From assembly GCA_027475525.1 (NCBI GenBank), contig JAMWFC010000053.1, positions 744,001 through 808,000 of the forward strand: a DNA stretch of 64,000 nucleotides. The letters run 5' to 3'. The stretch comes from Macrolepiota albuminosa. Lineage: Eukaryota; Basidiomycota; Agaricomycetes; Agaricales; Agaricaceae. The translations under genes and the position numbers were made by a program. Below, piece by piece: positions 3,626-27,434 of the stretch (positions are counted from its first letter, which is position 1; each line of letters opens with the position of its first letter). The notes beneath the pieces are model-generated. The model searched no databases. It was given only the letters and a program-made list of their open reading frames with translations, and was not told where the DNA came from.

Positions 3626-4668
3626 TGATAGGCTTCTACTCGGACTGAGCGCATCAAGGGACATTATAGGCCGACCAACACTTGACACACTAGAGACTCT
3701 AGCGACCAGCCTTGGGTACAGAGCAGCCCTAGCGCGGGTGCTCTATGGCAAGACTTATCCATTCATCTCAATCACCAGTACCAGCCCCTCAGCGCCCTCC
3801 ACTCAGTTACTTTGGAGAACAAGAAGACTCAGAACTCATAGCGCTAGCACAACGGCGGAAGGTGACTCTGACCAAACCCCGATCAGTACTGAAAGGAGTT
3901 AGCAATTGGCGCTGTCAATCACCGAGGCACCTCAATCAGAAGTCTAAAAGAATCAATGACGATGAGACAGGATACACGCAGACCCGACATTTAAATCTAT
4001 CAAAAGATGGTACAATGTTTAGCGCCAGAATTAGCGCTCACGGCGTCTGTCGAGGATTCCCCGACCATACCCCAGGATGGCATGGCCAATTAAATTACAT
4101 CAAAAAGTGAGCAAACTCGTACCACTTCTAAGTAGTTTTTGAGTCGCCGTTGGTCGCCGTCACCCATGTGCTGCAGGTCGCCGTTGACAGGTGGCCGTTA
4201 GCTACAGTCACGAAGAGAGGTGCTAATTGGTAGCGCCGTCAATGGACTTATTTTGGAAATAATGTAGCGCATAGTATAAAAACTAGCTACTTGCCATGTA
4301 TATAACAACGAATCATAACCTCTTGAGCACCCAGTTACACTTAGCGTTCAAATTGCGCTAGCGTTGCCTGACTTTGCCACCAAGTTCGGCGCTAGCTTCG
4401 TCTATCTCGTCTTCGTTGTTTACGGTGCCACCTACGGGCACGCTACGCTGCGCTATTTGTTTATTTCTCTATAACTTCTCCTAAACTACGACGCTTACCA
4501 CTTGCTAGGTAGCACCCGAGGCGCTATCATCTAGCGCATCGCCCTATCACCTCTGCTCGAGCACACCGGGACCCTGCCGGGACTCCTCACAAACCCATAC
4601 GCCAGGCGCTGGAGACGGCGTTGTACTGCGTATACGTCCAGCGCACCCAACCACAGTTGGCGTCATCA
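3626..4668 (+). repeat. Gypsy-1 5' LTR
   Basis: 1043 bp, equal in length to the right LTR, with TG...CA ends. A TATA-like box (AGTATAAAAAC, about 4271) is present in both copies and probably marks the element promoter. TAGCG/CGCTA words are very dense at 4321-4560. Confidence 0.9.
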
Positions 4669-7345: not shown

Positions 7346-10300
7346 GTGATGAGGATCATGGAGATGAAGCGCTTATCTTGGACTATAACCATCGGACTGG
7401 GCAAGTAAACTTTATATCATATACCCCTTTAGCCCATGAAATCTTGAATTCTTCTTCGTCGCTTACTAGCGAAGCGTTATCCTACTTATACCTCACTGCG
7501 TCAGATATTACTGAAAACCTTTCAACAGACACTTATTTTGTTTCTACTCCCGACTCTAAAGAACCTTTGATATCAGGTTTCACTAGAAACCATGACTCTA
7601 TTTATAATACGTTTGCTAACAATAGTACCCCTAAGCGCAAAGGGGTTCAGGTCAAGAAGAAATATAAACCCGTAGCGCTTAAAACGAAACCGGTAGCGAG
7701 CGCCGTACCCGAGGAATTTTTGCATCGAAAGAAAAATAATAGGCGACCCTTTGGCTACTCTGCCAAAACTCGACCCAAATCCACTACCCTTTGAGCCAAC
7801 GGGACGATTTACAGAAGAACAAAAGGCGCTATTTCTTAGCGCCCACGATACTGGCTTCCTCTCAACGGAGGAGATGAACGTATTAATTGACATCATGCAA
7901 AAACAGAATGAGGCTTTTGCATGGGAGGACTCAGAACGCGGTAAACTTAGAACTGACTTCTTTCCACCAGTGGTTATACCAACAATACCACACGTACCCT
8001 GGACTGAGCATAACCGACCCATACCCCCAGGCATCGAAGCCAAAGTCTGTCAAATTATTCGCTCCAAGATAGCGGCAGGTGTATACGAGCCTTCTAATTC
8101 AGCCTACCGCTCCAGATGGTTCTGCGTACTAAAGAAAAACGGGAAGCTACGTATAGTTCACAGCCTAGAACCGCTAAACAAAGTCACCATTCATCATTCA
8201 GGGGTACCGCCATTTCCCGATCACGTCGCTGAATCTTTTGCGGGACGAATATGTGGCGTTACCCTGGATTTGTACGTAGGCTATGACAAGCGCTTAATCC
8301 ATCCTTCTTCTCACGACTTGACGACATTTCAAACACCGTTTGAGGCGCTACGGTTAGTCACACTTCCTATGGGATGGACAAACTCGGTACCGATATTTCA
8401 CAACGATATTACGTTTATCCTACAGCCCAAAATACCCCACCATGTGCTCAGCTTCATAGACGACGTAGGAGTTAAAGGCCCGAAGGATTGGCGATTGGTA
8501 GATGGCAAGCCCGAAGTTCACCCGGAAAATTCTAATATTCGCATGGCGCTATGGGACTTCTTTCAACTGGTTAACCGAGTACTTCAGCGCATGAAGTATT
8601 GTGGCAGGACGTTTTCAGGGCACAAGCTCGTTCTTTGCGCACCGCAGTTTAAAATTTTGGGGCACGTTTGCACGCCAGAAGGCAGGATTCCAGAAAAGAG
8701 CCGATTAGCGCTGTTGGAGAAATGGGGGGTCTGTCATAACCTCTCGGAAGTTTGCGCGTTCTTGGGCACTGTAGGGGTGCTGTGCATGTTCATACACCAT
8801 TTTTCTCATCGCACAAACACCCTTAATTGCCTAACCCGTTCAGGGGTCCCCTTCAAATTCGGACCTGATCAAATCAATGCCCAGAAGGACTTAGTAAAGG
8901 CGCTACAGGAAGCGAAACCATTGGTACCCATCGACTATACTACCGCCGATCCCATTATACTTGCTGTTGACACATCATATATTGCCGTTGGCTTCTTTCT
9001 ATGCCAGTGTGATGGCGCAAACCGGAAAATCAGGCGCTACAATCGCTTCGGATCGATTACCCTTAACGACCGAGAATCGCGCTACAGTCAGCCCAAGCTA
9101 GAGTTATATGGCTTGTTTCGATCGTTTCAGGCGCTGCGCATGTACCTCATTGGGGTACGAAATCTCATTGTCGAGGTCGACGCACGATACATCAAAGGAA
9201 TGCTTCAGAACCCTGATATTCAACCGTCGGCCAGTATGAACCGCTGGGTAGTAGCAATATTAATGTTTCACTTCGAGTTAGTACACGTCAGAAGTGCATT
9301 CCATGGGCCGGACGGATTATCTAGGCGACCCAGACAACTGGAAGATGAAGCGCTAGACGATAGCGACAACAATGTATTTGATAACTGGATCGATCGATTG
9401 CATGGTTTCATGCATATCATTCAGCTGCCTATTCCGGTGCTTCGCGAAGACCAACCAGTTTCAAATTGGCTTCACCCTATTGTTCCGTACCAGCCCGACC
9501 ATATCAGGCATCATCAACTTTTTACACGGCCAGTATCTATAACATCACTAAGCCGTCTAACGATCTAAAGATAGTCGAGGAACCAAGACCCTTGCGAGAA
9601 GACAGTCAGAACCTGCCATATTCAGCGGTACCTCGAAGCGCCAAAGCTAAGTCAGAAGACCAGCGAGTGGACCAGGTTAGGAAGTGGCTACAGGATTTGC
9701 GACGACCATCAGACCTTACGGATACGGAATACGCCACCTTCATTCGATATGCGACGACTTTCTTCATAGTGGAAAACCAACTTTGGCGACGAAATAGAGA
9801 TGGTGCCCATAAACTAGTAATTAAACCGGATAATCAAGTTAGGATTCTACGTGCTATGCATGATGACTTGGGACACCGAGGACTCTATGCGACAAGGGCG
9901 AACCTTTTGGAGCGCTTTTGGTGGCCGCAAGTTAGCGCCGATATTGCGTGGTATATTCGCACTTGTCATCTCTGTCAAATCCAGCAGACACGTCAGGTTC
10001 TAATTCCCCCAACAGTAGCGACTCCAGCGCCGTTATTCGGAAAAATATATATCGACACCATGCACATGCCCAAGTCAGGGCGCTACAAGTATATCATTCA
10101 AGGAAGGTGTTCCTTGGTACATTGGCCGGAGTTCCGTATGCTCCAGCGGGAAAATACAGACGCTATAGCTAAGTGGCTCTTTGAGGACGTTATCTGCCGA
10201 TGGGGAGCCCTTCACGAGATCGTCACAGACAACGGAGCGCCAATAGTCAAGGCGCTCACTTATCTTGCCAAGAAATACAACATACAACACATCCGAGTCT

Positions 10301-10996
10301 CAGGATACAATAAACGTGCTAATGGAATCGTAGAAAGGCATCATTTCAATGTTCGACAAGCGCTATTCAAGGCGGTTGATGGTGACGAAAGTCGCTGGAG
10401 CGAGGCGACTTATTCGGTCTTCTGGTCGGAGCGGGTTACCATACGAAAGAGGATGGGTTGCTCTCCCTACTATGCGGTGACTGGCACCCACCCCTTGCTA
10501 CCTGCAGACGTGGTGGAAGCGACGTACCTACAACCCCCACCGAACTCAATACTATCCTCTACCAACATGATCGCTAGACGCGCTATAGACTTACAATGAC
10601 GCAGGGAGGATCTCGAGCGCTTACACAAGGTAGTATTTCAGGCTAGACAACAAGCTGCGCTACGATTTGAGACTACAATTTCACAACTGGCACCCTAGTA
10701 CTAATGTGCAACTCCAAGATCGAAGTTACCCATAACAAAAAGATGCGGCCTCGGTATCTGGGACCCCTAATAGTGGTTTCCCGCAATTGGGGAGGTGCAT
10801 ACGTACTCTGCAAGTTGGACGGCTCAGTTTTGCATCGACCAGTAGCGGTGTTCCGACTCATTCCCTACTTAGCACGTGAACGCATTTCATTACCTTTATC
10901 GGCGCTGGACATTGACACTGCTAAACTTCGAGAGCTAGAGGAGACCGAATTTGTGGACGATGACGAAGTCGCACCAGAAGAAGAAACCGATCAGTA
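7317..10996 (+). pseudogene. Gypsy-1 Pol (RT, RNase H, integrase), inactivated
   Basis: In order: RT with CVLKKNGKLRIVHSLEPLNK near 8127 and catalytic FIDDVGV near 8453; RNase H from VDTSYIAVGFFLCQC near 8968, with its Glu in KLELYG and Asp in VEVDARYIKG; integrase zinc domain (GHRGLY ... CHLCQ, 9870-9980); integrase core with IDTMHMP near 10050, TDNGAPI near 10226 and the Glu of NGIVERHH near 10323; and a GPY/F module (RPRYLGPLIVVSRNWGG, about 10747). Lesions relative to Gypsy-2: a 1-nt shift near 7735 (A-run), another near 9505, CGA to TGA at 10597-10599, and a short out-of-frame deletion near 10675. A restart occurs at 10704. Confidence 0.85.
7318..7325 (+). promoter_or_regulatory. Candidate -1 ribosomal frameshift site between gag-pro and pol
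   Basis: GTGTTTTC reads TGT-TTT-C in the gag-pro frame and GTG-TTT-TC in the pol frame, so a tRNA-Phe on TTT can slip back one base and re-pair with TTT. The same octamer sits in the same place in Gypsy-2 (23407-23400, minus). The gag-pro stop lies about 17 nt downstream in both. No stimulatory structure was tested. Confidence 0.5.
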
Positions 10997-11015
10997 ATAG
11001 TACCTGAAGGGGAAG

Positions 11016-11134: not shown

Positions 11135-11923
11135 TTACGTTCTACGGCGAGGACCCCTGACAAATCCCTCAGAGCGCCGGGGGTGCTGTCTGCGGCGGAG
11201 ATGCACGGGAGAAGGAGGCGGTGCAGGGGGGAGAATAGGCGATAGAGTAGAGGGAAAGGTCCCCGGAGGAAAGGTGGAGAAGCCGGGAGGAGATTCATTT
11301 GTGGGAGCAGGCAGCGCTCCAGCACGAATGGTGGAGGAGCCGGTGGGAGACTCGTTTAGGGGAGCAGGCGGCGCTCCCGCTCCAAAGCAAAAGGTGGAGG
11401 AACCGGGTAGAGACTCATTTATGGGGGCAGGAGGTGCCCCAGCTCCGAAGCAAGGAGCTAGAGGCGTAAACAGTATAATGACGCGCTGAAGCGTGGCGGC
11501 ACGAACTTCATCGTCAATCAGGTCTGGCAAGGGCAACCACTTCAAAGTCTGAAGCTGGGGGTCAGCAAACCTGAACGTATGAACGGGAAAAGAAGAGGAA
11601 CTAACAACATTATCCGTTTCAAGGAGTAGGTACTCCAAGCTTTTTGTGCTACCCGAAATAGGAGGCTGGAAGGACACGTAAGAAGGTACTTAAGGACCCT
11701 GACGGTGGAAACTTACCGCGTTGGGGTGCTGTTCGGACTCCACGAGCCACTCCTGGGCCATAGCCAGAAGTAACCGGTAGCGCCGAATCAGGGTAAGGAT
11801 ATTTCCGTTATGGTGTCGGATACCGCCTGGAGGCAGTCGAGCAAAGAACATCTCGAGGCGATCTAAAACCTCGGGACGAGGAATGGAGGTGATGTCTTCG
11901 AGAAAGAAAGAGGGAGTAGGCAT
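11135..11923 (-). CDS. Antisense gene C of Gypsy-1 (unknown function)
   Basis: Two exons. Exon 1 (11923 to about 11717) starts MPTPSFFLEDI and has a helical FFARLPPGGI ... RRYRLLLAMAQEW segment. Its GTAAGT donor is followed about 50 nt later by a TTCCAG acceptor into PPISGSTKSLEYLL. Exon 2 ends in four imperfect repeats of a GAGAPPAP-x-NES-x-GSSTF type and a basic tail. The helical N-terminal segment resembles those of genes A and B, suggesting one domain present three times. A TATATAT motif lies about 40 nt upstream of the ATG. There is no counterpart in Gypsy-2. I do not recognise the family. Confidence 0.5.
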
Positions 11924-11962
11924 TCCGAAGAACTTAACAACGCTAGGCCCGGAAATCTCAGA

Positions 11963-11970
11963 TATATACC
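11963..11970 (-). promoter_or_regulatory. TATA-like box upstream of antisense gene C
   Basis: The minus strand reads GGTATATATCTG about 40 nt before the gene C ATG at 11923. Comparable boxes lie upstream of antisense genes A and B. Confidence 0.4.
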
Positions 11971-12177
11971 TAGCAACATTATGCAGGGTTGAAGGGACTT
12001 AGGAAACAGAACTTATGCGGCACCATCACGAGGACGCGACAACAACAATATATTTCATGTAACTACGGCAGAAGAAGCAAAAAGCTGGGAATATGTTAGG
12101 CCGGTGGCGCTGCGAAGAAGATGGGATCGCCTCACTCAAACTATAGGGGGGGGGGGAGAAAAACAACACACGACAGG

Positions 12178-12642
12178 TCAAGAAGGGCCGAACCAAGAAA
12201 TACGCTTGCTAACTACCGTCGGCCCCTCAAGGGGACCACGAAAGAGACGAGCGCCGGTATACTTGCGAGGGGACTAGGAGAAAAGAGCCGTTAGACACAG
12301 AAGGAGAGGTGATGGCTCAGTTACTAACCAGGTAATAGCTTTCCTCCATCAAAAGTTGAAGACGCTCCACCATGTCTTCGGTGGCGATTTTCTGGATTTG
12401 GGCGACTGTCAGAAGGAGTGCGCCAAGAATAGCAAGACACGCACATGGAAAGCCAGACTCCAAGTAGCCTCTGTATCAAAATGCGTTAACGGGGACGCAT
12501 CTCCCCAAATTTCACAAGCTGCCCGCAGAAGCCAACAGCGACGACCCAACTCGATTACTTTGTCAGCCAACTTAGGAATACCCTCGGGAGGGTAATGATG
12601 AAAGAACGAGGTGGCCTGGTCCAGAAAGGTGGGAGGGTCCAT
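12178..12642 (-). CDS. Antisense gene B of Gypsy-1 (small protein, unknown function)
   Basis: The likely start is ATG at 12642 (MDPPTFLDQATSFF). Exon 1 encodes FFHHYPPEGI ... ELGRRCWLLRAACEIW, similar in pattern to gene C (FFARLPPGGI ... RRYRLLLAMAQEW). A short intron (about 35-39 nt, acceptor TTCTGACAG) leads to AQIQKIATEDMVERL. A GTTAGT donor and CTCCTAG acceptor then lead to SPRKYTGARLFRGPL and a stop at 12178-12180. The protein would be about 130 aa. Exon borders are my estimate, and the first donor is uncertain in phase. Confidence 0.4.
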
Positions 12643-12734
12643 GGTAACATAGGCGCGATCACAGCTTCAAGTCCACATGCAACCAGACGGGGTGGCCATT
12701 GCGAAGACTGATGGAATCGAGTTGATGCATAAGT

Positions 12735-12745
12735 AATTTATAGGA
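12735..12745 (-). promoter_or_regulatory. TATA-like box upstream of antisense gene B
   Basis: CCTATAAATTA on the minus strand lies about 95 nt upstream of the gene B ATG (12642). Confidence 0.4.
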
Positions 12746-13219
12746 CACGGGAAGTGTTTCGATTAGCGACAGCGTGGGAGGACTTTTCTCAAGGAGCCAG
12801 GACCCTAACAGGAGCGCTAGCCAATCAAAAGTGTTTAACTTATTCTGGGTCCCTCCAAAAAGGGAATTGACATTCGATGTTCAGTGCTTACTCACAACCG
12901 CGCTAAACGGGCATAAGCGATCACTGGTTTTCTATTTCTTTATACGCGCTACTTCTTACATGGATCCGCTTATTTATTTCCAGACAGTTCCTATTTTCTA
13001 CTTAGGCTGGTGCGGTAATGGCTATTGGACCACGTCGGCAAAGGGGTTTTTGCGCTGTGATGATCTACTGAGCGTTTCCCCTTTTTACTTATTTTTCTTT
13101 TGATTACTTACAAACTGACGATTTGAAGCAAGGGGGGGCGTTTATTTTAGCATCACACACTACAAAGTACGTATCAAATGACAAAGTCCATAAAAGTTTA
13201 AAACGCTAAGGGCCGGCAA

Positions 13220-15530
13220 CTACGGATCATACTCGGGAAGGGCGGGATCGCCCAAAGGAAGCAAGTCCCCATCCTGGATCCCATTGCTCGTCTGCCACTC
13301 AAGTGCAGCCGTAATATCGTCATGGAGCTCGAGCAAGAGGCGCTCGCGGCGAGCTAAGGTGGAAACACGAGGACGCAGGTTGGCAAGTTCGCGACCAACG
13401 ACTTCGGTCGCATCCTCAATATGGTGAAGTTGCTGGCAAAGGTCGGCAGAGGGACGGAGAGGAGTAATGGGATAGGAGAACTCGTCCCCGAGCCAAGGGA
13501 AGGCGTTGCCAGAAACTCGCATGGCAGGAGGGGGCATCCAAAAGGGATCGAACTTATTGGGGGATTAGAAAAGGGGAGAAAGGAACGAACAAAGACGGAC
13601 GTACCCAGACAGTTACAGGCACACGGGGTGTCCACTCATGGCGCTCGTCGCCGGGGGACATAGCTCTGGCAGAAGAAAGATGGATACCGTAGGGAGGCAA
13701 GTATCTCCAGCGGCGACAACACTCACCTTCCGGCACCAGGATTCCTTCGGACTCCAGCGCCGCAGAAGTCTCGTGACTACTAGGAAAAGAAGGGGAGCTG
13801 TGGGGAGGAGTAAGGGATGGAGTAATAGGGAGAGCAACTGGAGTGTTGCTAGCTGCAACCAACTCGGGGGCAAGGGTAGCGCCAGCGTCAGACATAACGA
13901 CATCTTCGGCAGCAGGGATAGCCACTACAGCGGAAACAGGAGTGGGGGACCTATCAGTCAAGAAGTTAGCACGCAAAGAAAAGAGAAGTTAGGAAAATGC
14001 GTACTGGTTACCACTGGGGCCACTCTGACGAGGGTTAGCGGCGATAGGGGGAGTAAGGCAAAGCAGGAGAGCGCGTACCGCCAATAGCGCATCGGCATCA
14101 ACAATGGGCTCAGCTTCATCATCATCCTCTCTCTCGGCATCCCTCTCAGTGCCCTCCCCCTCATCCGTAGAAGACTCGGTTGAAGACAAAACCACAGGCA
14201 TAGCAGGCGCTAGCTCGCAGCACTTACCAGGGCTCTTGCCAGGAGACACAACAACAGGCTTACGTTTCAAAAGAACGGGACGACAAGGAGAGCGAGCAAA
14301 AGGTGCCACCATGGTAGTACCATCTTGGGTAGTCGGCAGCGCCAGGCTGGCTGCGCTGATTACCGTGGGTTGGTGAGTAGCCGCCAGATCACGTTGCTGC
14401 AGCACAAAGTCCTGGGCGTTACGAACCAACACTGCGCGCTCATAGTTCCTTTGCATAATGGTGTCCCTACCACGTTCACGAGTACAAATCCCGTTGAAGG
14501 CGCAGCCCCGTTTCAACGCATCGCACCGATAGCAAGGCAGAGACGTGGTAGGAAACCAGCAGCCCTCCGGATCGTTCTCAGACCAACACTTGTCACACTA
14601 ATAAAGAAGTCAGTGACGGCATGATGAACCTACTAAGGGGCAAACCAGTGCTTACCGCGCCAATCTTTGCCCTAAACACGCAACGCTCCAAGGGCGCAAC
14701 GGTAACCTTCTTCTTGCCGCCCAGTACTTGGACACCAGCCGGGATGCCGGTATCAATGACGGTAGTATCATGGCGAAGACGCAAAAGGTCGCAAAGCTCC
14801 ATGTCGGTGAACATAGTCTGGTTAGGCGCCTATCGACATTAACATTTAGGCGCTAAAGTCTAGCGACAACGAGCAAAGCACTTACGACATACAAAGGGGG
14901 AACACGAGCAGGGAGATTGATCTGGAAGAGGAGAAGTCAGAAAAATGGAGTAAGGAAGATAGGGAAAGAACGCACGGTACATTTGGGAGAACTAGCACGA
15001 GCAGGAGGCGCTTGTTCAATAACAATGGCAAAATTACGTGGAGGACCATGGGAAGTTGTGCGTGTCGGACCGGGTCGTGGCTCGCTACGAGAAACGGCAA
15101 TGCGTTTGATGGCCGAATGGGGAGGGGCAGTGCAAATGGGAGAAGCAGTGCTTGGGGCAGGGTGAGTGGAAGAAGCAGCGCCACGAAAAGGGCTGCCAAG
15201 AATGGAAGGAGGCGGAACAGAAGTCGAAGAAGGAGGGGCGGTAGGAACAGAAGGGACAGTAGAGGCCGAGGGGGCAGTAGGAAGACTGGCGATGGTGGGA
15301 GACGTGGCAACCGACTGCTCAAGGATTAACAGTGGAAAAAGGGGAGAAGAAAAGGAAGGATTTACCTCGCTGACCTCGGTACTAGCCAACAACGTGTCGA
15401 TCTTGTCGGATAAGGAGGGAGCCTAGTATGGGCGCTGAACCTTAGCACCACAAAGCCAAAATCAAACTTAGAAACTTACAAAAAGGTCTGCAAAAGAGCA
15501 CAACCAATCGGCACCTTCGAACTCACGGTA
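13220..15530 (-). pseudogene. Antisense gene A of Gypsy-1, main part (exon 1 split by Gypsy-2)
   Basis: This continues the exon begun at 27375-27174. Exon 1 ends at 15480 before GTAAGT. Exon 2 is 15422-15366. A Pro/Ser/Ala-rich exon follows at about 15317-14990, then APNQTMFTDMELCDLL ... VFRAKIGA (about 14830-14655). The exon starting at 14597 opens with CDKCW and holds C-x2-C-x8-C-x8-C-x2-C-x6-C, the same spacing as Gypsy-2. Then come acidic/low-complexity sequence, the conserved WRYLPPYG (about 13690), and a final exon with VSGNAFPWLGDEFSYP (13537-13220). I infer a zinc-binding, possibly DNA-binding protein. It is listed as a pseudogene because of the 11.6-kb insertion; borders after about 14228 are uncertain. 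Confidence 0.65.
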
Positions 15531-15534
15531 CCGG
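15531..15534. repeat. TSD CCGG, left copy (Gypsy-2)
   Basis: CCGG precedes the TGATGACG LTR end and is matched at 27170-27173 after the other LTR. Removing the element and one copy rejoins antisense gene A of Gypsy-1 in frame. Confidence 0.8.
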
Positions 15535-16477
15535 TGATGACGCCCAAAGTTTGGTCAGGAACAAATGTAACTAAAGTGTTACCGTACCAAGAGTGTGCGT
15601 TGGGCACGCTAAAAGTGATATGAGGAGTCCCGGGCAGGTTCCAGAGAACGTGTCTGTGAAAAAGGGTAAAAGTCGGTAACGGGGTCGGCAAGTGTCAAGC
15701 GCTAAGGTAAAGCACCTAAGGAAAGAGCGGTAAGTGAACACGGCAAGGTCAACGGCAAGAGCACGGTAAGCTTAGCGAGATCTAAGCGTCGATAATGCCT
15801 GCCGTAGTTGCAAGGCGCGAATAAGTCGAAGTTAAGCGAGAGTCTGCAACTGCCGACGAGTTCGACGTTGCCGACCGTAAATGAGCTCTTGAGCGTAAGA
15901 GAGAGACTGAAGTAAGGGGGAAACTCTGGTCTATTCGTCTTCTGTGATATGTACAAGTCGGTAAGTACTTTTATACTACAAGGAGTTCGCCGTCGCCAGT
16001 GGCTAATGACGCCAGAGTGCGGTAAACTGGAAAATTTCAAAGGGGTAGCTCCAACAGTTTCAGATCCCTACCGTCCATTCAAGAGCCTTAGCGACGCCAG
16101 GCGACAGATCGCAAAGCTAAACCATCACTCCATCACCCTTCTGTCCGTCCAAAGTGCTTAGCGATGTCAGGCGCCAAATCGAGGCGCTAAGCGATGTCAG
16201 ACGCCAAGGTCAAACGCCAAGCTGTCCGTCAGTTTTTGATAGATCATCAAGCTTCTCGCTAAGCGCTGTCGTCAGTGACTGATGCCATCTGTCAGTTGTC
16301 ATTCTTGCTGCCGTCGGCGCTATCACTGATCGGATCTGCTTCTTGCCGTGCGCGGCCGTCAGAAATGGCTTAAAATGGGTAGAACGCGTGCGCTAAGTTC
16401 GGAATGAGTGCGGCAAGGTTTCCGGAGCCGGTGCCGAGCCTGCCGTTGATGCGCCTAACCTGTATAGGGTCCTATCA
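15535..16477 (-). repeat. Gypsy-2 3' LTR
   Basis: 943 bp with TG...CA ends. On the minus strand it begins TGATAGGACC right after the polypurine tract. A TATAAAAG-type box (minus strand, about 15970) is present in both LTRs. Confidence 0.9.
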
Positions 16478-16489
16478 TCTCCCCCCAAC
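16478..16489 (-). promoter_or_regulatory. Polypurine tract of Gypsy-2
   Basis: The minus strand reads GTTGGGGGGAGA directly before the 3' LTR. The identical tract precedes the 3' LTR of Gypsy-1. It primes plus-strand DNA synthesis in this class. Confidence 0.75.
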
Positions 16490-16646
16490 TGAAAAATTGA
16501 CTGTCCTCAGTCACCAAATAAGGCTACCGTTACCGCTTTTGTGACAAGTGGTCCGTGCGTTCTTGAGATTTGGTTTATAGTCCTGGCGCATGAGTGTGGA
16601 CTTCGTTTCTCCTCCCCATCTTTTCCTGGCGCTCAATTAAAATAAA

Positions 16647-19153
16647 ATGTCTTTCCGCATTCCAACTCCGCCCCCAGTACCCTCTCAGGCTGCCCAGGAA
16701 GCCGCCTACGCCTATATCGCTAAAGCCAACAATTTCATTCGCCATATCGAGGGCGTTGGCGCCGAGGCGCCTCAAAAATTGGTCGTTGGCGTGATGAAGC
16801 TTTTGGAGCGCTGGTACGAGGTACGCGTCCTTGGCATTGGTTGGGATCGTGAAATCAAGGTGCAGGAATGGTGTCGTGCGCGCTATGTCGACAATCGTGG
16901 CGCTGAGTGGTTAGCGCCTTTTCCCCATTTCGTAAGTTGCTTTTGCTGCCTGCCGTGTCGCTTAGCTGATTGTTCCCTAGGCGCCTCCTGCTGTCCCCAC
17001 TATCGAGGACGAGTTGGAGGACATTCTGTCCGGGGCGTTGCCGATGACGGTAAGCGCGCCTGCGGCAGAGTGAGTATCTCTAACCACTTTCTCATAACTT
17101 AGCTCTGGTCTGATTTATCTCCTCACAGTAAACAGGAGGTGTTGGCGCCCTTGGCGCGTATGCAGGTGGAAGAAGAGATCGCGGCAAGGCAAGAGGAGGT
17201 TTCCCAGGATGCCCGCGAGATTATGAGGGGGATAGAGGAGCGAGAGAGGGTGGCAGCGTTGGCGGCAGAGATGGAGGACGTTGCCGCGGGGAAGACGCCT
17301 GCCGTTGAGAGGCAGGTGGTAGCAGAGGGATCCGGCAAGGTAGGTCGCGCCGGCAGCACTTTGAGCCCAGTGCTGCCGGCTAGCAAGTCGGGCTCGCCGA
17401 GGAAGCCGGTAGGCGCTTCCAAACGCAAGGTAAGTGTTGAATTTCGCTTGCCGTTGCCGACGGTCGCTAACGACATCTGCAGAGTCGCAAGGCGGCTCCT
17501 CAATACGCGGTGAGTGGTACTTGCTTGCCGTTGCCGACGGTCGCTAACGACATCTGCAGAGTCGCAAGGCGGCTCCTCAATACGCGGTGAGTGGTACTTT
17601 CGTTTTGAACTGGAATTACTAAGTTTCTGTAGGCGCCAACCCAAAGCTCCTTTGACGACAAGGAGCTGAAAGGTTTGCTTTTGCCGCGTTGGGAGGAGGC
17701 TGTCCTTGATGAGGGACAGGAGGCCGGGGTCGTAATGGAGGAGATGAAGGGAAAGAAGACCGTTTCCCTGGCGACCCGGCAAGCTTTTAAGGAGGCGCGG
17801 GGAGCGGTAAGTGGTTTTTCTGTCTCATTTATTCTATTGGTTGACTTGTAGCGCTAGTGTGACAAGTGCTGGGCAGACAACGACCCAGAAGGCTGCTGGT
17901 TCCTGACTGGGGCCCAGCCATGTTATCGTTGTGGCGCCCTCAAGCGCGCCTGCACTATCGATGGGGCCAAAAGTTGCGAGCGTGGCGGCGCGCCAGACGC
18001 CCTCGTCGAGAAGACGTTTTCCCGTGCGGTGTTGGTTAGGAGGGCTAGGGAGTTTGTGGAGGGACAGAGGAAGAAGGTCGCTGCCGGTGGTATGGCAGCT
18101 GTTGGACGAGCCTCCTTGGCGTTACCGACGCGCCAAGGAGATGGATCAGAATCAGTCGGCAACCGAGGCGCTGGCGAGCGCCAAGGGACTTTGGTCCCAG
18201 AAAAACGACAAGCCCCTTCCCCAAGCAAGGGGAAGGGCAAAGCAAAACGTCCTCGCGTGGTCTCGTCGTCGCCTTCCCCCTCGCCAGCGCCAAAGGATAC
18301 CGAGATGGAGGACCTCGAGAAGGCGTTGGCGGCGAGTCGCCTGCCTCCTCGTGATTCTGAGGCAGGCCCAAGTGGCCTCTTGTCGCCTATTCATTTGGCG
18401 GCAAGGTCCCTTGGCGAGGAGCAGGAGGAGGGAGAGCGGGAAGCGGTTGGTGACACGGCGCCTCGAGAGGAACGGGAAGAGGCTCCCGTCGATGTCGAGA
18501 TGAGGGAGGAGGAGAAGGCAGAGGGGGCTGCAACAGGAGGGGATGAGGACGCTGAAGGAGAGGAGGAAGAAACCTTGGCGACGCAGCGCCAAGGCGACGA
18601 GGAGGCAGGAGCAAAGGAGGTGGTAGCGGGAGCAGGGGAGGCAGCGGCAGAAGTTGCCCGGGAGGAGCCTCAGTGGCGCTGGCTACCTCCCTACGGTAAT
18701 GTCGCCCCATGGGAAGTGTCGGACCCAGAGGATGTTGCCGGGCTGGAGCCAAGACGCCCCGTCATCGCCAGGGTTAATCCTGCCTGGACCCCTCAGCCGG
18801 AGCCGACGGTCACTGGCAACGCTTTCCAGTAGCTGGGGCAGGATCTCGTTTACCCAGTCGTAGCGCTAAATCCTCGCGAGATGCTGGAGCGATATTCGAG
18901 GCGAGCGGCAACGATGGAGGCCACAATGAGTCGGGAGCGGGAACGAGTCCGAGAGCAGCTAATGGCGCTAAGGCTGCGCTACTCCAACCTTGGTCGCAGC
19001 CTTCGCGTTCTTTGCGACTACCAGGACGACTGCCAGGCCGCCATGGATTGGCAGACCGCCAATAATATCTTGCCGGGCGACCTCCTACCTCTGCGTGATT
19101 CTTCTTTGCCGGTATCGGATAGTTCCCTGCCGTTGGACAACGATAGCGATTGA
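16647..19153 (+). CDS. Antisense gene A of Gypsy-2: spliced, Zn2Cys6-like cysteine cluster protein
   Basis: Proposed exons: 16647-16931, 16981-17069, 17129-17429, 17483-17509, 17633-17806, 17858-19153, with 49-60-nt GT...AG introns; about 723 aa if the TAG at 18830-18832 is read as Trp. The N-terminus is helical (AYIAKANNFIRHI ... VQEWCRARY). A charged segment and APTQSSFDDKELKGLLL follow. The last exon opens CDKCWADNDPEGCWF and continues PCYRCGALKRAC (C-x2-C-x8-C-x8-C-x2-C-x6-C). Then come SPSP/KR-rich and Glu-rich stretches, WRWLPPYG, and GNAF-x-x-LGQDLVYP. It resembles a Zn2Cys6 cluster except for x8 in place of x6. It lies opposite the integrase-LTR interval. The TAG looks like a single TGG mutation, because Gypsy-1 has PWLG there. 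The copy of the 27-nt exon at 17560-17586 lies in a 77-bp artefact. Confidence 0.7.
17446..17599. repeat. 77-bp tandem duplication (in antisense gene A)
   Basis: 17446-17522 is repeated exactly at 17523-17599. It duplicates the 27-nt exon and a flanking intron. It has the same 77-bp period as five unrelated sites, so it is probably an assembly artefact. Confidence 0.9.
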
Positions 19154-19580
19154 GCGGACCTTAGCGTAGACAGGCCGCTTGTGTAAATACTTTATTTTTG
19201 TTACCGCCTGTTATACACCTCTTTGCCGTTTCGGTGGAAGTGAACGGATAAGTCCCAGAACCTGAGTTAGCGCAGTTGCAGAAAGCAGAGAGTAGAGCAA
19301 GGAGAAGGCAAGCGGCAAGTATTCTAAGGTAGGTTTTTAGCAAGAGCAATAGTATGTGAGGGACTTAGACAAATTTTGAGGAAAAGGGAAACGCTCAGTA
19401 GATCATCATAGCGAAAAACCCTGGGCGAGAGTTGCGCAAGGCGCTAAGCGTTGGCGACACGCTAGCGCTGCGACTTGACTATGTAAAGAAATGTCTGTTG
19501 AATATAGTATAGTAAGTCACGGCAAGAAAGATAAGTAAGGTAAGTAATAGAAAAATAAGAGCTTATCAGTACTGTCTTTT
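19154..19580. other. Spacer between convergent antisense gene A and pol in Gypsy-2
   Basis: About 430 nt with no convincing ORF. It holds TAGCG/CGCTA-type inverted words (for example near 19440-19470) and probably both 3' untranslated regions. Confidence 0.5.
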
Positions 19581-20808
19581 CTAATCATTTTCTTCTTCTT
19601 CAACTAGAGTCGGTAAGTCATCATCGTCCAATAATTCGGTTTCTTCAAGTTCTCGTAACTTGGCGGTGTCGATATCTAGCGCTTCAAGCGGCAAGTCAAT
19701 GTGTTCTCTGGCGAGATACGGCAATAGGCGGAAAGCGGCAACAGGTCGATGTAGTACTGAACCATCTAATTCACAGAGCACGTAAGCGCCTCCACGGTTA
19801 CGAGAGATAACTACCAAAGGTCCTAGATAGCGAGGGCGCATTTTCTTGTTGTATGAAGTTTCGATTTTGGAGTTGCACATAAGCACTAGCGTGCCCCTCG
19901 GGAAGTTGTAATCCTTGATAGTAGCGCTATGGTCGGTCTCGAATCGTAGGGCTGCTTGGCGACGGGCGCTAAAGACTACCTCGTGGAGTCGCTCTAAATC
20001 TTCTTTCCTTCGCTGGAGATCAATAGCTCGTCTGGCGATAAGGTCGGTAGTCGCTAAGATGCTGTTGGGTGCTGGCTGAAGGTAGGTCGCTTCTATGATG
20101 TTGGCAGGGAGTAAAGGATGGGTGCCAGTAGCCGCGTAATAGGGAGAACAACCCATGCGCTTACGAATGGTAACTCTTTCCGACCAAAATACTGAATACG
20201 TCGCTTCACTCCAACGAGACTCGTCGCCATCGACTGCCTTAAAGAGCGCTTGCCGAACGTCAAAGTGTGGTCTCTCTACCAGGCCATTGGCGCGCTTGTT
20301 GTAGCCAGATACTCGAATGTGGTGAATGTTGTATTTCTTGGCAAGGTATGTTAGCGCTTTGATGATGGGCGCACCGTTATCCGTGACGATTTCTCTTAGC
20401 GCTCCCCAACGGCAGATGACGTCCTCAAATAGCCACTTGGCGACCGCCTCTGTATTTTCTCTTTGGAGCATTCGAAATTCAGGCCAGTGGATTAGCGAGC
20501 AACGACCTTGAATGATGTACTTGTAGCGACCAGACTTGGGCATATGCATGGTGTCGACGTAGATTTTGCTGAAGAGGGGAGCTGGCGTTGCAACGGTTGG
20601 CGGTATGAGCACTTGGCGTGTCTGTTGAATTTGGCAGAGGTGGCAAGTCCTAATGTACCAGGCGATGTCGGCACTAGCGTGTGGCCACCAGAAGCGTTCT
20701 AACAGAGAAGCTCAAGTAGCGTACAGACCTCTATGACCTAGCTCGTCATGCATAGCGCGCAAGACTCATAAGCGACCTTCTGGTTTGATGATCAGCTTGT
20801 GAGCGCCA

Positions 20809-20962
20809 TCTCGATTTCGTCGCCAAAGTCTGTTGTCGGTAAAGAAGAAATGGGTAGCATATCGGATAAAGGTCGCGTATTGTTCTCTCGATTTCGTCGC
20901 CAAAGTCTGTTGTCGGTAAAGAAGAAATGGGTAGCATATCGGATAAAGGTCGCGTATTGTTC
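20809..20962. repeat. 77-bp tandem duplication (in Gypsy-2 pol)
   Basis: 20809-20885 is repeated exactly at 20886-20962. Deleting one copy restores the pol frame from RNase H into the integrase, which supports an artefact. Confidence 0.92.
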
Positions 20963-23379
20963 ATCGGTAAGGTCTGGGGGTCGCTTAAGGTCTTGGATCC
21001 ATTGCTCGACTATTAACAAGCGACTGTCTTCCGCCTTTGCCTTGGCGGACCGGGGAACGGCATCGTAGGTCAGGTTTCTGCTGTCTTCCCTTAGCGGATG
21101 GGGCTCTTGTACGACTTTTACTGGAGGCGAGTTTTGACTGTGGATGCTTGCCGTGTAGAACGTGAGGGGTGCGCTAAAGGTCTCGGGGCGGTAAGGGACG
21201 ATGGGATGTAACAGGATACTGGTAGACTGTTGCCGTCGTAATAGGGGGATTGGCTGTTGTATGAGGTGCACGAAACCATGTAAGCGGTCAATCCAGTCCT
21301 TGAAATCGCTATCAGCCTGAGGGTCCACTACCGGGTCGCCAGGCTGCCGTGGTCGCCTAGAGAGTCCATCTGGGCCGTGGAAAGAGCTCTTGACGTGTAC
21401 CAGTTCAAAGTGAAACATGAGGATAGCGACTACCCACCGATTCATGCTAGCGGATGGCTGGATGTCGGGATTCTGCAGCATGCCTTTAATGTACCTAGCG
21501 TCGACTTCAACGATAAGGTTTCGCACGCCAATCAAATACATCTTTAGCGACCGGAAGGCTTTGAAGAGCCCATAGAGTTCTAGCTTAGGCTGACTGTAGT
21601 GAGACTCTCTGTCGTTTAGCGTGATAGACCCAAAGCGGTTGTAGCGTCGCTGTTTCCGATTGTCACTAAGGCACTGGCACAGGAAGTAGCCAACGGCAAT
21701 GTACGAGGTATCCACCGCCAAGATAACAGGGTCGGCAAAGGTATAATCGATGGGGACTAGGGGCTTGGCGTCTTGTAGGGCTTTTACTAAGTCTCGTTGG
21801 GCAGTGACCTGGTCTGGCCCAAATTCGAAGGGCTCGTTAGCGCGGGTGAGTCGGTTAAGAGCGTGTGCGCGATGGGCAAAGTTCTTGACGAATATCCTGA
21901 GAACGCCAACGGTGCCAAGAAAGGCGCGAACTTCAGATAAGTCGCGGCAAGGACCCCAGCGCTCCAAGAGTGCTAAGCGAGACTCGTCGGGAACGCGTCC
22001 GTCGGGAGTGCAGATGTGACCAAGTATTTTGAACCTTGGCGCGCAAAGGAGGAGTTTGTGACCGCTAAACGTACCACCGCTATACTTCATACGCTGGAGA
22101 ACTCGATTGAGCAGCTGGAAAAAGTCCCATAGCGCTAAGCAAATGTTGGAGTTGTCGAGATGGGTTGCCGGTAAGCCGTTTACGAGTCGCCAGTCTTTGG
22201 GGCCTTTGACGCCAACGTCGTCGATGAAGCTAAGGACGTTATGCGGTATCTCGGGTTGGAGGATGAAAGTGATGTCGTCGTGGAATATAGGGACTGAGTT
22301 TGTCCAGCCCATCGGCAAGGTGACTAGGCGCAGTGCGCCAAACGGAGTTTGAAACGTAGTGAGGTCGCGGGAAGAAGGGTGAATCAAGCGCTCATCGTAG
22401 CCAACGTAAAGGTCAAGGGTGGCGCCACAAATGCGCCCGGCAAAGGACTCGGCAAAGTGGTCAGGGAAAGGCGGTACGCCAGAGTGTCGTATAGTAACCC
22501 TATTCAGCGGTTCGAGACTGTGGACTATGCGTAGATTGCCGTTCTTTTTGAGGACGCAAAACCAACGAGAGCGGTAAGAACTATTGGAGGGCTCGTAGAC
22601 GCCAGCCTGTATCTTGGTCCTAATGATCTGGCAGACCTCGGCTTCGATCCCAGGCGGTAACGGTCGGTTGTGCTCAGTCCACGGCACGTGAGGGATAGTC
22701 AGGATGATGACAGGCGGGAAGAAATCTGTACGTAGACTGCCGCGTTCGGAGTCCTCCCAAGCAAAGGCTTTGTCTTGCTTAGCGACAAGATCGGTAAGGA
22801 CGTTCAACTCATCTTTGGTCAAAAATCCTATGTCATGCTCCTTGGCGAACTGCTTCTGGCGCTCTGTGGTAAAACGTCCTGTGGGCTGAAAGGGTGGCGG
22901 ATTCGGTGATAAGGTCGGTATGTCGGCAAGAGGGTCGCCAATGATCTGGCACTCGATCCTAAACGTCTCGGGAGAGTGCGTAGCAATCGGTTTTGTTTTA
23001 AGCGCAACTGGCTTATATTTCTTTTTAACTTGGACCCCTTTCCTTTTGGGAGCATTAGCTTGGTTATATACAGAGGTGGAAAGGGGAACTGTAGCCTGAG
23101 GGGCGGCAAGTCCAAGAACGGCAGGAGACGAGGCTCCGGGAAGAGTAGTGAGATAGGTGTCGGTAGACGCAATACTTTGAAAAGATTCGGAAGCGGTAAG
23201 GTACAAGTAGGCAAGAGAAGAGTCGGTAATGTTTTGATTTTTCTGGGAAGGCTCTGTGTCGGTAGTAGGTAAAGTAGTTAAAACATCTTCATCAAGAAAA
23301 GCAGTAGACAAAACAGTTACAAGACCAGTTAAATGGTCATATTCCAGCGTTAGCGCTACATCTCCGTGATCGTCGCCAA

Positions 23380-25769
23380 TCACCTCCTCGATGGTCTGTG
23401 AAAACACCGGTGGGGAGGCTCGTTGGCGTGTTGGTCGGTAAACTCCGGGGGCTTAGCGCGGGCGCCTTTTCGTTGTCCCCTAGGGAACGTTGGCACCGTT
23501 CGTCGGATTCCGGAATTGGGGTCGCTAATTGTGAGGGTCGTTTCCTCGTCGGTAACTGTCTTGACGACTGATCGCGCCAAGACGTCGAAGGGTCTGCCAA
23601 GTAGTAGGTCGTAAGCTGGTGAACGTAAGATGTGTATCTGAAGATAAAACGTAATGTCGCCAAGGGTGCACGGCACATTCTTGGCGAGTCCTAGGGATCT
23701 GTCCACCGTTCCGTTAGCGCTCTGCATGTTTAATATAACCGTAGGGTCGTAAATGAGACCCAAATCGTTAGCGACTTCTGCTGCCATAGAAATAATCTGA
23801 GACCCGCTATCCACGATTGCCTCTACTTCGTGCTTGTTGTCTACGGTTAGCGCTACCGAGCGGATAGCGTGCGATTCTTGAGCGACGGTAAGGATGGCGG
23901 GGTCCTCTCCATGGTCTACCGACCTAAGATAGGTCTCTACTGGGTCCACAGAGGTGGCGTTAGCGATGGGGTCGGCAAGAGGTTTATCGGTGTCGGGAGA
24001 GTCAATGGTAACAGAGAAACCAGGAAGCGCATCGTCGAGTTCATCAACCTCGGCAACGGCTGTCGCCAAGGGTCGTCGAGGAGTGACTGCTGTTTTGACC
24101 TGGTTGCGGACGTCCGGGGCAATACTACAAAGCTCTTCAACTGATAAGGTAACATTGGTTTTCATGATGCGGTTAAAGACGTGATTTGATTTTTCGATGT
24201 CGAAGATTGGCGCGGTAGGTCGGTAGCCACCCTCAGGACGTTTCTTGGGAGCGGCAAAGTTTCGTTGTGCGGGAGCGTGATAACGGTCGGGAATCCCTGA
24301 ATAAGGATGGAGAGGCGGCAAAGGCGGTTCGGGAGCGGTAGCGGACGACGATGGTTCTGAAGCAGGAGCAGGGGCAGTGGCAGGAGGTGCGGCAGGAGCA
24401 GGTGTCGGTAACTTGCTAGCGGGAGGCATCGGCTTGTATCCTTTAAGAGGTTGTTTAGGCTGCTTAACTTCAACCCCATCAAAGACCTGGTTCTTTAGCG
24501 AATCTAATTCCTGCTGCAGCTTGGCGATACGCTCTTCCCGCGAGAAAGTAGGGCGGTCGCCAACGCTGTCAAAATGTAGGACCTCGTGAATCATCTGCTG
24601 TTGGGTCGCCTGTTCGGGGTCGGGGTTGGCGTTGCCAGATAGCGTGCCGGTAACGATTTGTCCTGGATTGCGCCTATGCCACTCATCAACTCGCTCCTGG
24701 AAGGACTTCTTGTCTGGGTAGTTGGGGATGGTGGCGCCAGTGGTAAGAACTATCTTGCCGTCGATAGCCCGTCGAATTCTACCTTGGCGAACGTAATTCT
24801 CGAGGGTAGCGCAGCGTCCTCTAGTCATGGTATGGCCAATTTCCCCACAGAAGTGGCAAGGGCCAGGTGCAGGTACGTTAGCGGGTCGGTTAGCAGTCAG
24901 GTTGGTGGTAATCATAGTTTCAATACGCGTCATAGCGGAAGCGACAGCGGCGGTAATAGCAGCATTGAGTTCTTCTTTCTTAACGAAGTCGGCAACAGGA
25001 GGCGGGTCATAGCGGAAGCGACAGCGGCGGTAATAGCAGCATTGAGTTCTTCTTTCTTAACGAAGTCGGCAACAGGAGGCAGGATGGGAATGATACCGTT
25101 AGTTCGCTCAGGTGGTGGGCTCGTCCTAGCGCGTTGCAGTCCAACGCCAGTGTCCGTTCCCTTGAGAACCCATTTACCGGCTTCAAAGACGTTGGCAACG
25201 TTATAGGGCTCGTCTGGGTGATGAGCCTGATGAACTATCTCTAGGTGACGAGCAATACAAGTCCACAGTGAAGTCGGGATGCCTTGCTGAAATAGGCGAC
25301 GTTCCTCGTTAATGTAGAGCTTGCCGTTCTGCAGAAGCCACCTAGCGATTTTCTGGAACTCGCGGTAATACGTAGAGAATGCGCCAAGAGATGATGTGCC
25401 ACTGTCGAAAGATTCCTGAACTAGTTTCTGCAACTCGTTTACCGTGTATTGGGTAGCCTCCTCTGCGCCAGGGTACAGCTGGATTACTGCCATCTTCCAG
25501 TCCTCATATGAAGTGCCCTGGGCTGGAACGGGTGGGGCGGCAGGGACAAAGGCGGCAAACTCGGTCAAACCTGTCCACGTCTCTGCCGTGTCATATGATA
25601 CGTATCTTGCCGCGTACTCCTTCATCTGCGTATGGTCGGTAATGTTACAATCTCTGAATAAATACTCCAACTCCTTGAAATACTGGGAGAGCTCCCGTGG
25701 CTTGGACTCGTCCCATTTTGGTGCCGAGAAGTGGTTGCGTGGCGGCATGCGCTGGACTTGTTGTTCCAT
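23380..25769 (-). CDS. Gypsy-2 Gag-Protease
   Basis: Starts at the conserved MEQ Met (25769); the frame is also open upstream without another Met. A capsid-like region (MPPRNHFSAPKWDE; ERRLFQQGIPTSLW) is followed by a CCHC-type knuckle (CHFCGEIGHTMTRGRC), a Pro/Ala-rich linker and an aspartic protease (IVDSGSQIISM; LLLGRPFDVL). As assembled it is broken near 24930, exactly at a 77-bp tandem duplication. Removing one copy joins AAVASAMTR to IETMITTNL and gives one continuous ORF. It ends PSRR-stop, overlapping pol by 28 nt. Confidence 0.85.
23400..23407 (-). promoter_or_regulatory. Candidate -1 frameshift site of Gypsy-2
   Basis: GTGTTTTC on the minus strand, in the same codon register and the same distance from the gag-pro stop as in Gypsy-1. 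Confidence 0.5.
24929..25080. repeat. 77-bp-period tandem duplication (in Gypsy-2 gag)
   Basis: 24929-25003 is repeated at 25006-25080 (75 nt exact, period 77). It breaks gag as assembled; one copy restores the ORF. Confidence 0.92.
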
Positions 25770-26097
25770 AGCGACTGTGTTAGCGAGTTCGGTTAGCGGT
25801 AGTGGGGAAGGGGTTCTAGAGATTGGCGACGGGGTAAGAGAGATGAGTTGTGAAAGAGGCGTTAGCGGAGTAATGGGAGTGATTGGTTGTGGTACGGTAA
25901 ATGGCGACGCTAAGGGGTCGTCGGCGCTATAATCGAGGGAATGCGGGAAGAGATCAGGAAATGCGTCTACAGTGGTGTTCTGTAGTTCCTGGGCAAGAGA
26001 GAGACCCGGTAAGGCACCAGGTGGTTGTGGAGTTGATGGGTGGGAAGGAGCTATGCCTTCTGCCGACTGGTCTAGCAGGCGGCGCCTACGCTGGAGA

Positions 26098-26251
26098 CGG
26101 GTTTCTGGCGGAATTCTGCCCTAGAGATCCCTCGCGGTGGGCTCCAATTTGATGACGCCCAAAGTTTGGTCAGGCGGGTTTCTGGCGGAATTCTGCCCTA
26201 GAGATCCCTCGCGGTGGGCTCCAATTTGATGACGCCCAAAGTTTGGTCAGG
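26098..26251. repeat. 77-bp tandem duplication (PBS/5' LTR junction of Gypsy-2)
   Basis: 26098-26174 is repeated exactly at 26175-26251. It duplicates the PBS and the first about 25 nt of the LTR end. Confidence 0.92.
26205..26223 (-). promoter_or_regulatory. Primer-binding site of Gypsy-2
   Basis: The minus strand reads TGGAGCCCACCGCGAGGG three bases inside the 5' LTR, matching the Gypsy-1 PBS. A second copy lies in the 77-bp duplicate. Confidence 0.7.
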
Positions 26252-27169
26252 AACAAATGTAACTAAAGTGTTACCGTACCAAGAGTGTGCGTTGGGCGCG
26301 CTAAAAGTGATATGAGGAGTCCCGGGCAGGTCCCAGAGAACGCGTCTGTGAAAAAGGGTAAAAGTCGGTAACGGGGTCGGCAAGTGTCAAGCGCTAAGGT
26401 AAAGCGCCTAAGGAAAGAGCGGTAAGTGAACACGGCAAGGTCAACGGCAAGAGCACGGTAAGCTTAGCAAGATCTAAGCGTCGATAATGCCTGCCGTAGT
26501 TGCAAGGCGCGAATAAGTCGAAGTTAAGCGAGAGTCTGCAACTGCCGACGAGTTCGACGTTGCCGACCGTAAATGAGCTCTTGAGCGTAAGAGAGAGACT
26601 GAAGTAAGGGGGAAACTCTGGTCTATTCGTCTTCTGTGATATGTACAAGTCGGTAAGTACTTTTATACTACAAGGAGTTCGCCGTCGCCAGTGGCTAATG
26701 ACGCCAGAGTGCGGTAAACTGGAAAATTTCAAAGGGGTAGCTCCAACAGTTTCAGATCCCTACCGTCCATTCAAGAGCCTTAGCGACGCCAGGCGACAGA
26801 TCGCAAAGCTAAACCATCACTCCATCACCCTTCTGTCCGTCCAAAGTGCTTAGCGATGTCAGGCGCCAAATCAAGGCGCTAAGCGATGTCAGACGCCAAG
26901 GTCAAACGCCAAGCTGTCCGTCAGTTTTTGATAGATCATCAAGCTTCTCGCTAAGCGCTGTCGTCAGTGACTGATGCCATCTGTCAGTTGTCATTCTTGC
27001 TGCCGTCGGCGCTATCACTGATCGGATCTGCTTCTTGCCGTGCGCGGCCGTCAGAAATGGCTTAAAATGGGTAGAACGTGTGCGCTAAGTTCGGAACGAG
27101 TGCGGCAAGGTTTCCGGAGCCGGTGCCGAGCCTGCCGTTGATGCGCCTAACCTGTATAGGGTCCTATCA
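26227..27169 (-). repeat. Gypsy-2 5' LTR
   Basis: 943 bp, equal in length to the other LTR with about 8 transitions. It is followed by CCGG at 27170-27173. Confidence 0.9.
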
Positions 27170-27173
27170 CCGG
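27170..27173. repeat. TSD CCGG, right copy (Gypsy-2)
   Basis: Matches 15531-15534. Confidence 0.8.
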
Positions 27174-27375
27174 GCCACACACCACTCGCGAACCTCGTCA
27201 CCCCGCTCCCAGGAACTGTCGGAGCTGCGGACCATGAGCCAGTGTCGATAAAGTTGCATAATGCCAGGGACGGTTTGTGGTGCATCGGCGGGACCGACAG
27301 ACTTAGCGTGATCAAATAAATAGGAGGCCTTAGCCAGGAAATTGCAGAGAGCAGAGGCATCGAAAGAAGTGGACA
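27174..27375 (-). pseudogene. Antisense gene A of Gypsy-1, start of exon 1
   Basis: ATG at 27375 (MSTSFDASALCNFL), then AKASYLFDHAKSVG and DEVREWCVAR before the CCGG target. The pattern follows Gypsy-2 gene A (AKANNFIRHIEGVG ... VQEWCRAR). Across the excised insert it reads EWCVAR then YREFEGADWL, and then a GTAAGT donor at the same place as in Gypsy-2. That rejoins the exon exactly. An in-frame Met further upstream exists, but the Gypsy-2 alignment favours 27375. Confidence 0.7.
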
Positions 27376-27426
27376 TGCTGGAAAGATGGGAAGGAAAACA
27401 CGGGAAGGTGAAGTGCGGAAAACAAC

Positions 27427-27434
27427 TTTTATAA
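27427..27434 (-). promoter_or_regulatory. TATA box upstream of antisense gene A (Gypsy-1)
   Basis: The minus strand reads CCTTATAAAAGTTG about 55 nt before the ATG at 27375. It lies outside the LTR, suggesting an element-internal promoter for the antisense gene. Confidence 0.45.

Follow-up and report, generated by a model that had tools for sequence, protein, structure and literature searches.

Our analysis supports the presence, in two related Gypsy retrotransposons of Macrolepiota albuminosa, of a spliced protein-coding gene that lies antisense to pol and that, judging from the comparison of its copies, has been kept by purifying selection comparable to that on pol. The sequence examined was a stretch of 64,000 nt (the window) from contig JAMWFC010000053.1, positions 744,001–808,000, of a genome of about 100 Mb. 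Gypsy-2 lies on the plus strand at 3626–28719, with long terminal repeats (LTRs) at 3626–4668 and 27677–28719 that are 97.41% identical (27 differences in 1043 columns). It is split by Gypsy-1, which is nested within it on the minus strand at 15535–27169, breaks exon 1 of the Gypsy-2 antisense gene and has LTRs at 15535–16477 and 26227–27169 with an identity of 99.15% (8 differences in 943 columns). The pol of Gypsy-2 (7697–10997, plus strand) contained RNase H and integrase zinc domains that passed the Pfam cut-off and an RVT_1 match below the cut-off, and open reading frames (ORFs) of the Gypsy-1 pol were located at 19581–23452 on the minus strand. The LTR pairs and the strands of pol bear out the two elements and the orientations proposed in a preliminary description of this DNA.

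In both elements the multi-exon gene begins just inside the 3' LTR, and the encoded proteins share the same order of features: a helical N-terminus, a cysteine cluster with the spacing C-x2-C-x8-C-x8-C-x2-C-x6-C, a W-x-LPPYG motif and a GNAF...LG...YP region. The Gypsy-1 gene runs on the plus strand from the ATG at 16647 to 19153 and has at least six exons: exon 1 (16647–16931), exon 2 (16981–17049), exon 3 (17103–17429), exon 4 (17483–17509, doubled in the assembly through an exact 77-bp repeat at 17446–17599), exon 5 (17633–17806) and exon 6 (17858–18829), which contains the cysteine cluster (17858–17953), a basic stretch, an acidic stretch and WLPPYG. The five introns, those bordering exons 2 and 3 included, are of the GT-AG type and in phase 0, and their places recur in two further genomic loci, L043 and L044, with the exon-5 acceptor of L044 not directly readable since the match there begins one residue late. 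An in-frame TAG (18830–18832) directly follows the exon 6 stretch, and the sequence past it (18836–19153) resembles the C-terminus of L043 (87%) and L044 (59%); identity to Gypsy-1 in exon 1 was 93% for L043 and 83% for L044.

The Gypsy-2 gene lies on the minus strand. The first part of its exon 1, with the start ATG, was found at 27170–27376, where it is cut by Gypsy-1, and the remainder, followed by GTAAGT, at 15480–15533. Exon 2 (15366–15422) and the counterpart of Gypsy-1 exon 5 (14656–14829) are each preceded by AG and followed by GT; the cysteine-cluster exon (14228–14597) is preceded by AG and has a putative end at GTAAGT; and the last-exon region, with GNAFPWLG...YP, the C-terminus and the stop, occupies 13220–13564 with a provisional 5' border. 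The intron places of the two genes coincide at the end of exon 1, at both ends of exon 2, at both ends of the exon-5 equivalent and at the cysteine-exon acceptor, that is, at the readable borders, those of the Gypsy-2 middle and last exons not being fixed. The matching domain order and, wherever borders could be compared, the matching intron places of the preliminary description were thus confirmed. The interval it gave, 11135–19153, fits less well, as exon 1 of the Gypsy-2 gene begins outside it, at 27376, and 11135–11998 holds further antisense units. Over 71 residues of exon 1 the Gypsy-2 and Gypsy-1 proteins show an identity of about 45%, and in the cysteine exon one of 47%; the Gypsy-2 C-terminus is 36–39% identical to those of L043 and L044. 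In the assembly neither window copy is intact, the Gypsy-1 gene being interrupted by the TAG and the Gypsy-2 gene by the nested insertion.

The genome was searched with Gypsy-2, Gypsy-1 and Termitomyces queries, which gave 855, 784 and 766 first-look candidates, respectively, and 150 places were scored for each query. The query stretch was free of stops in 137, 143 and 150 of the 150 places, the best-150 sets favouring well-preserved copies, and identity to the query was 79–100% in the Gypsy-2 set and 82–100% in the Gypsy-1 set. Since these two queries share about half of their residues the two sets cannot overlap, and the genome therefore contains at least 300 copies of the gene. Among 20 fetched Gypsy-2-like copies, sampled with the antisense gene itself as the query, the gene was antisense to the nearest integrase in 19; the exception is L035, in which another element has inserted downstream and accounts for the pol on the same strand. 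An LTR was present beyond the 5' end of the gene in 19 of the 20, L038 having another insertion there. Counting 22 fetched loci and the two window elements, the gene and the reverse transcriptase (RT) were on opposite strands in 22 of the 23 elements with an RT match; the remaining locus, L033, has no RT match and its integrase is antisense. The splice sites were kept as well, with GT at the intron-1 donor in 28 of 29 Gypsy-2-like copies (AT in L042) and AG at the acceptors of exon 2 (27 of 27) and of the cysteine exon (31 of 31). Reading through intron 1 led to a stop in 24 of 27 copies, and its length was a multiple of three in only nine of the 27. Introns that lie antisense would not be spliced out of the sense genomic RNA and so would be kept in every new copy; the argument to this effect in the preliminary description is sound.

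Selection was measured as the ratio of nonsynonymous to synonymous divergence (dN/dS), the comparison between copies that the preliminary description had named as a check. Over codons 1–123 of the cysteine exon in 32 distinct copies (482 of 496 pairs with usable dS), the mean dN/dS by rising dS class was 0.40, 0.15, 0.17, 0.16, 0.14 and 0.04, the value of 0.40 being that of the youngest pairs. The corresponding ranges for pol were 0.35 to 0.04 in RT and 0.37 to 0.10 in integrase (12 copies each, four with a stop in each case). With CpG sites removed, the cysteine exon had a proportion ratio of 0.03–0.09. The antisense C-terminus gave 0.10–0.22 (29 copies, one with a stop), and for exon 1 the value was 1.33 among the youngest pairs, whose mean dS was 0.007, and 0.13–0.32 beyond dS 0.03, in a set of 23 of the 31 loci (one with a stop) that omits seven oppositely oriented loci and L038, which has no exon 1. 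Codons past the GTAAGT of the cysteine exon were less constrained (1.10 down to 0.09). Among 40 control rows, eight of them duplicates, the other frames of the cysteine exon gave 0.87–2.30 except for reverse frame 1 (0.14–0.62), whose third positions fall on those of the coding frame. All six cysteines were invariant in the 32 copies. Distances in the gene and in RT were correlated (Mantel r = 0.945 for 23 elements, a set that includes L035 with an RT from another element, and 0.862 for 20 Gypsy-2-like elements), and in each case none of 5000 permutations gave a value as high. On the selection and the kept splice sites, a chance ORF or a plain pseudogene was rejected.

Beyond this genome, the matches in protein searches came exclusively from Termitomyces (11 of 11, 39 of 39 and 71 of 71; the sets overlap and comprise 78 proteins from five strains), where two of the searches had scored about 8000 candidates sharing most words and one had scored 121. 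The annotated Termitomyces gene models share the same spliced make-up, and the best identity of the genome copies was 68% to the T32_za158 query and 52% to the J132 query. By these identities the genome is probably that of a Termitomyces other than the five strains, or of a near relative. Dozens of 'hypothetical proteins' of Termitomyces are probably transposon genes. No relative outside elements was noticed among the candidates scored in these searches, which do not give genomic context. A search of viral contigs returned 105 pattern matches, none of them a relative, and Rfam returned no match.

The preliminary description had called the protein Zn2Cys6-like, differing from that class in one spacer. 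Zn2Cys6 domains usually have the spacing C-x2-C-x6-C-x5-12-C-x2-C-x6-8-C and a basic first loop. The likeness lies in six cysteines in two groups of three and in a second group, C-x2-C-x6-C with LKR, that is similar to the first group usual in that class; the difference lies in the first group, which has x8 instead of x6 and an acidic first loop (WADNDPEG). The single differing spacer was indeed found, but kinship was not upheld. Pfam scans up to E 10, in which the HMMER filters drop most matches above about 0.1, gave no match to Zn_clus (PF00172), sequence searches of the PDB gave insignificant matches only, and none of the 78 related proteins fitted the usual spacing. A structure prediction of the cysteine region, proposed beforehand, was of low confidence: AlphaFold gave a confidence score (pLDDT) of about 38 over residues 1–40 of the cysteine exon, which hold the cluster, a mean of 60.1, and one long helix after the cluster (exon residues 48–75, block means up to 92). 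Membership in Zn2Cys6 was rejected on the spacer and the Pfam and PDB results, no confident fold being predicted for the cluster. A metal cluster is suggested by the invariance of the cysteines, not by the fold. The spacing (x2-x8-x8-x2-x6), which the preliminary description expected relatives to keep, was exact in 39 of the 47 database relatives with a recognisable region; the other eight proteins are without some of the cysteines or are cut. DUF3716 (PF12511), matched by two of 28 members of the antisense protein family with a best E of 0.12 and no score above the curated cut-off, is only a weak lead.

The region between the polypurine tract and the antisense ATG contains a conserved palindrome. 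In Gypsy-1 the palindrome, TTGACTGTCCTCAGTCA, lies at 16497–16513, between the polypurine tract (16478–16490) and the ATG; the same palindrome is present in Gypsy-2 at 27487–27503, with more copies at 27564 and 27641 (one mismatch) inside a 77-bp repeat. Putative TATA-like sequences were found about 70 nt ahead of the Gypsy-1 ATG (TTTATAG, 16574–16580, plus strand) and about 50 nt ahead of the Gypsy-2 ATG (TTATAAAAG, 27426–27434, minus strand). Starting at the LTR edge, both window elements have TCTCCCCCCAACTGAAAAATTGACTGTCCTCAGTC on the gene strand, the 77-bp repeat copy that adjoins the Gypsy-2 LTR deviating at one base. The polypurine-tract pattern was present in 21 of 24 element rows (absent from L038, L040 and L041), nearly always together with the exact palindrome, which is off by one base in L035. 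The 16-mer TTGACTGTCCTCAGTC had 642 exact copies in the genome, some of them doubled by the 77-bp artefact described below, and its reversed control had none. In 53 of 57 gene copies from the top lists (contigs C1–C43) the palindrome was found 1.2–2.2 kb upstream on the same strand, and 53 of 100 palindrome sites listed paired with a listed gene copy, both lists being incomplete. When the middle eight bases were left free we obtained 588 sites, with an identical middle in 96 of the 100 listed, and 752 sites were within three mismatches of the 30-mer block. The location of the palindrome, between the polypurine tract and the TATA-like sequence, would suit an operator as well as a priming signal, or a site that is both.

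Tentatively, and as something short of probable, we favour the reading that this Gypsy lineage carries an antisense accessory gene encoding a nuclear regulator that may bind, as a dimer, a palindrome at its own promoter. A promoter situated between the polypurine tract and the ATG would drive the gene, and the spliced mRNA would encode a nuclear protein, roughly 500–700 residues long, that has a cysteine cluster binding metal, a basic stretch, an acidic stretch and a helical C-terminus and that would regulate the element. Binding of a protein dimer to TTGACTG-AGGA-CAGTCAA at the promoter could then result in autoregulation and in a balance of the opposed sense and antisense transcription units. 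We hypothesize a role as a regulator or in anti-silencing; that the protein represents an undescribed cysteine-cluster class of sequence-specific DNA-binding proteins, recognises the 18-bp palindrome and regulates or un-silences the family in trans seems to us rather doubtful. Several results weigh against the regulator reading. TTGACTG was not found in the two LTRs examined, and direct control of the sense promoter via this motif is therefore unlikely; the palindrome adjoins the polypurine tract and may be a replication signal; no Pfam family was above its cut-off for the antisense protein; and to these are added the low-confidence fold of the cluster, its acidic first loop and the eight relatives without the exact spacing. 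We consider it about as likely that the accessory gene is real while the conserved block of polypurine tract, T-rich stretch and palindrome is a plus-strand priming signal or a hairpin in the genomic RNA, with the protein acting elsewhere, as in bringing the integration complex into the nucleus, in the choice of targets or as a chaperone. The block is fixed as a whole, as seen in the 96 shared middles and the 752 sites resembling the 30-mer, its RNA is able to form a 6-bp hairpin (z −1.72; nine of 200 shuffles fold as well), and the antisense proteins of plants are believed to work within the nucleus (PMC7264820). The hairpin is weak, however; where the middle varies, in four of the 100 listed sites, there is no compensatory change, which neither supports nor excludes it.

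An element-encoded anti-silencing factor, which would bind element DNA and counter host DNA methylation or heterochromatin, appears improbable. Transitions make up 26 of the 27 LTR differences in Gypsy-2 and all eight in Gypsy-1, and 22 of 27 and seven of eight, respectively, are C/T or G/A differences at CpG. Such changes correspond to CpG deamination and make methylation of the elements by the host probable, which speaks for this explanation; deamination, however, points to probable silencing and not to a protein that opposes it. A role of the antisense RNA itself, through double-stranded RNA or copy-number feedback with the protein incidental, has been discussed for other elements (PMC7264820), but purifying selection at the codon level like that on pol, together with the kept splice sites and cysteines, makes it very improbable here. 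We give even less credence to a recently captured host gene that merely hitch-hikes. Its multi-exon structure resembles that of a host gene, but subfamilies at 39–47% protein identity share the gene in the same place, and its distances track those of RT; an old capture of a host gene is possible. The family would show that an antisense placement alone allows retroelements to keep genes with introns over long times.

Gypsy-2-like elements contain two further antisense coding units, a (MDPPTFL..., 12469–12642, minus strand in Gypsy-2) and b (MPTPSFF..., 11717–11923, minus strand), which are paralogous (hhalign 99.7%) and were not found in L043 and L044. Unit b has stops in three of eight copies and a dN/dS of 0.28–0.51, and a proline-rich repeated stretch comes after it. 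Kinship of the N-terminal domain of the antisense protein with these units was rejected (hhalign probability 2–3%). Gypsy-2 also has a primer-binding-like sequence, TGGAGCCCACCGCGAGGG, at 4672 and a polypurine tract, AGTTGGGGGGAGA, ahead of its 3' LTR. Both elements have CCGG at each flank. Genome-wide, CCGG stood ahead of 52 of 591 Gypsy-1-type LTR ends (about 9%, versus 0.4% for a random tetramer), the 591 being 896 ends minus 305 preceded by the exact primer-binding sequence, and a target preference is possible. In L023, read in the orientation of the gene, positions 1050–1500, which reach from the inner edge of the LTR into exon 1, were 87–94% identical to L036 and 83–91% to L039, and neighbouring LTR and gene windows mostly 70–86%, with a weak contrast against L042; regulatory constraint and recombination are suggested as alternative causes. 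Exact 77-bp tandem duplications occur in unrelated sequences of the window (17446–17599, 20809–20962, 24929–25080, 26098–26251, 27478–27710 and 62416–62570). In 213,822 bases of fetched loci the unit was 77 in 64 of the 65 exact tandem duplications with units of 30–159, and these are very probably a k-mer assembly artefact that also disrupts genes. A 70-bp tandem array of 8.7 copies was observed at 40026–40635.

Antisense accessory genes of LTR elements are common in plants and their functions are unknown, and the fungal family offers a tractable case, with one strongly selected protein, hundreds of copies of a candidate target site and variation among subfamilies. The plant Gypsy examples of the aORF-3R type named in PMC7264820 are maize Grande gene23, rice RIRE2, Silene Retand and bean PvRetro13; gene23 is reported there to possess a promoter of its own and to give a product located in the nucleus. 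They share with the fungal gene its place and strand, are present in most copies and are conserved like the other element proteins. Of the 23 elements with an RT match, 22 showed the aORF-3R placement, an antisense ORF situated after pol and before the 3' LTR, and we found conservation similar to that of other element proteins in the dN/dS comparison with pol. The fungal gene differs in its at least five introns, its six-cysteine cluster and its host; the likeness is one of description, sequence comparison being limited to the TRP28 profile in Pfam. Retand TRP28, according to PMC11963269, likewise lies in a long region between pol and the 3' LTR as an antisense ORF nearly universal in its lineage, is predicted to bind DNA and is proposed by the author to have a regulatory role; the fungal protein has no Pfam match to TRP28 (PF04195), and introns are not mentioned in the main text of that paper. 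In fungi, Boty-like elements of Botrytis cinerea carry the antisense gene brtn (PMC8365987, with a mention in PMC7264820), which is likewise additional to the usual genes of a fungal element and lies antisense in the region from pol to the 3' LTR, but in an ascomycete and likened here by description, not sequence. Also by description, human T-lymphotropic virus (HTLV) has the antisense regulator HBZ and an antisense promoter in its 3' LTR (PMC11963269 and PMC7264820), with an antisense gene begun at the 3' LTR side and a nuclear product as the likeness. No basidiomycete element with such a gene was among the matches listed in the open-licence literature. Antisense accessory genes were thus known before from plants and Boty, and within the searches made the new features are the spliced cysteine-cluster gene, the lineage that hosts it, the selection measured on it and the palindrome fixed in its copies.

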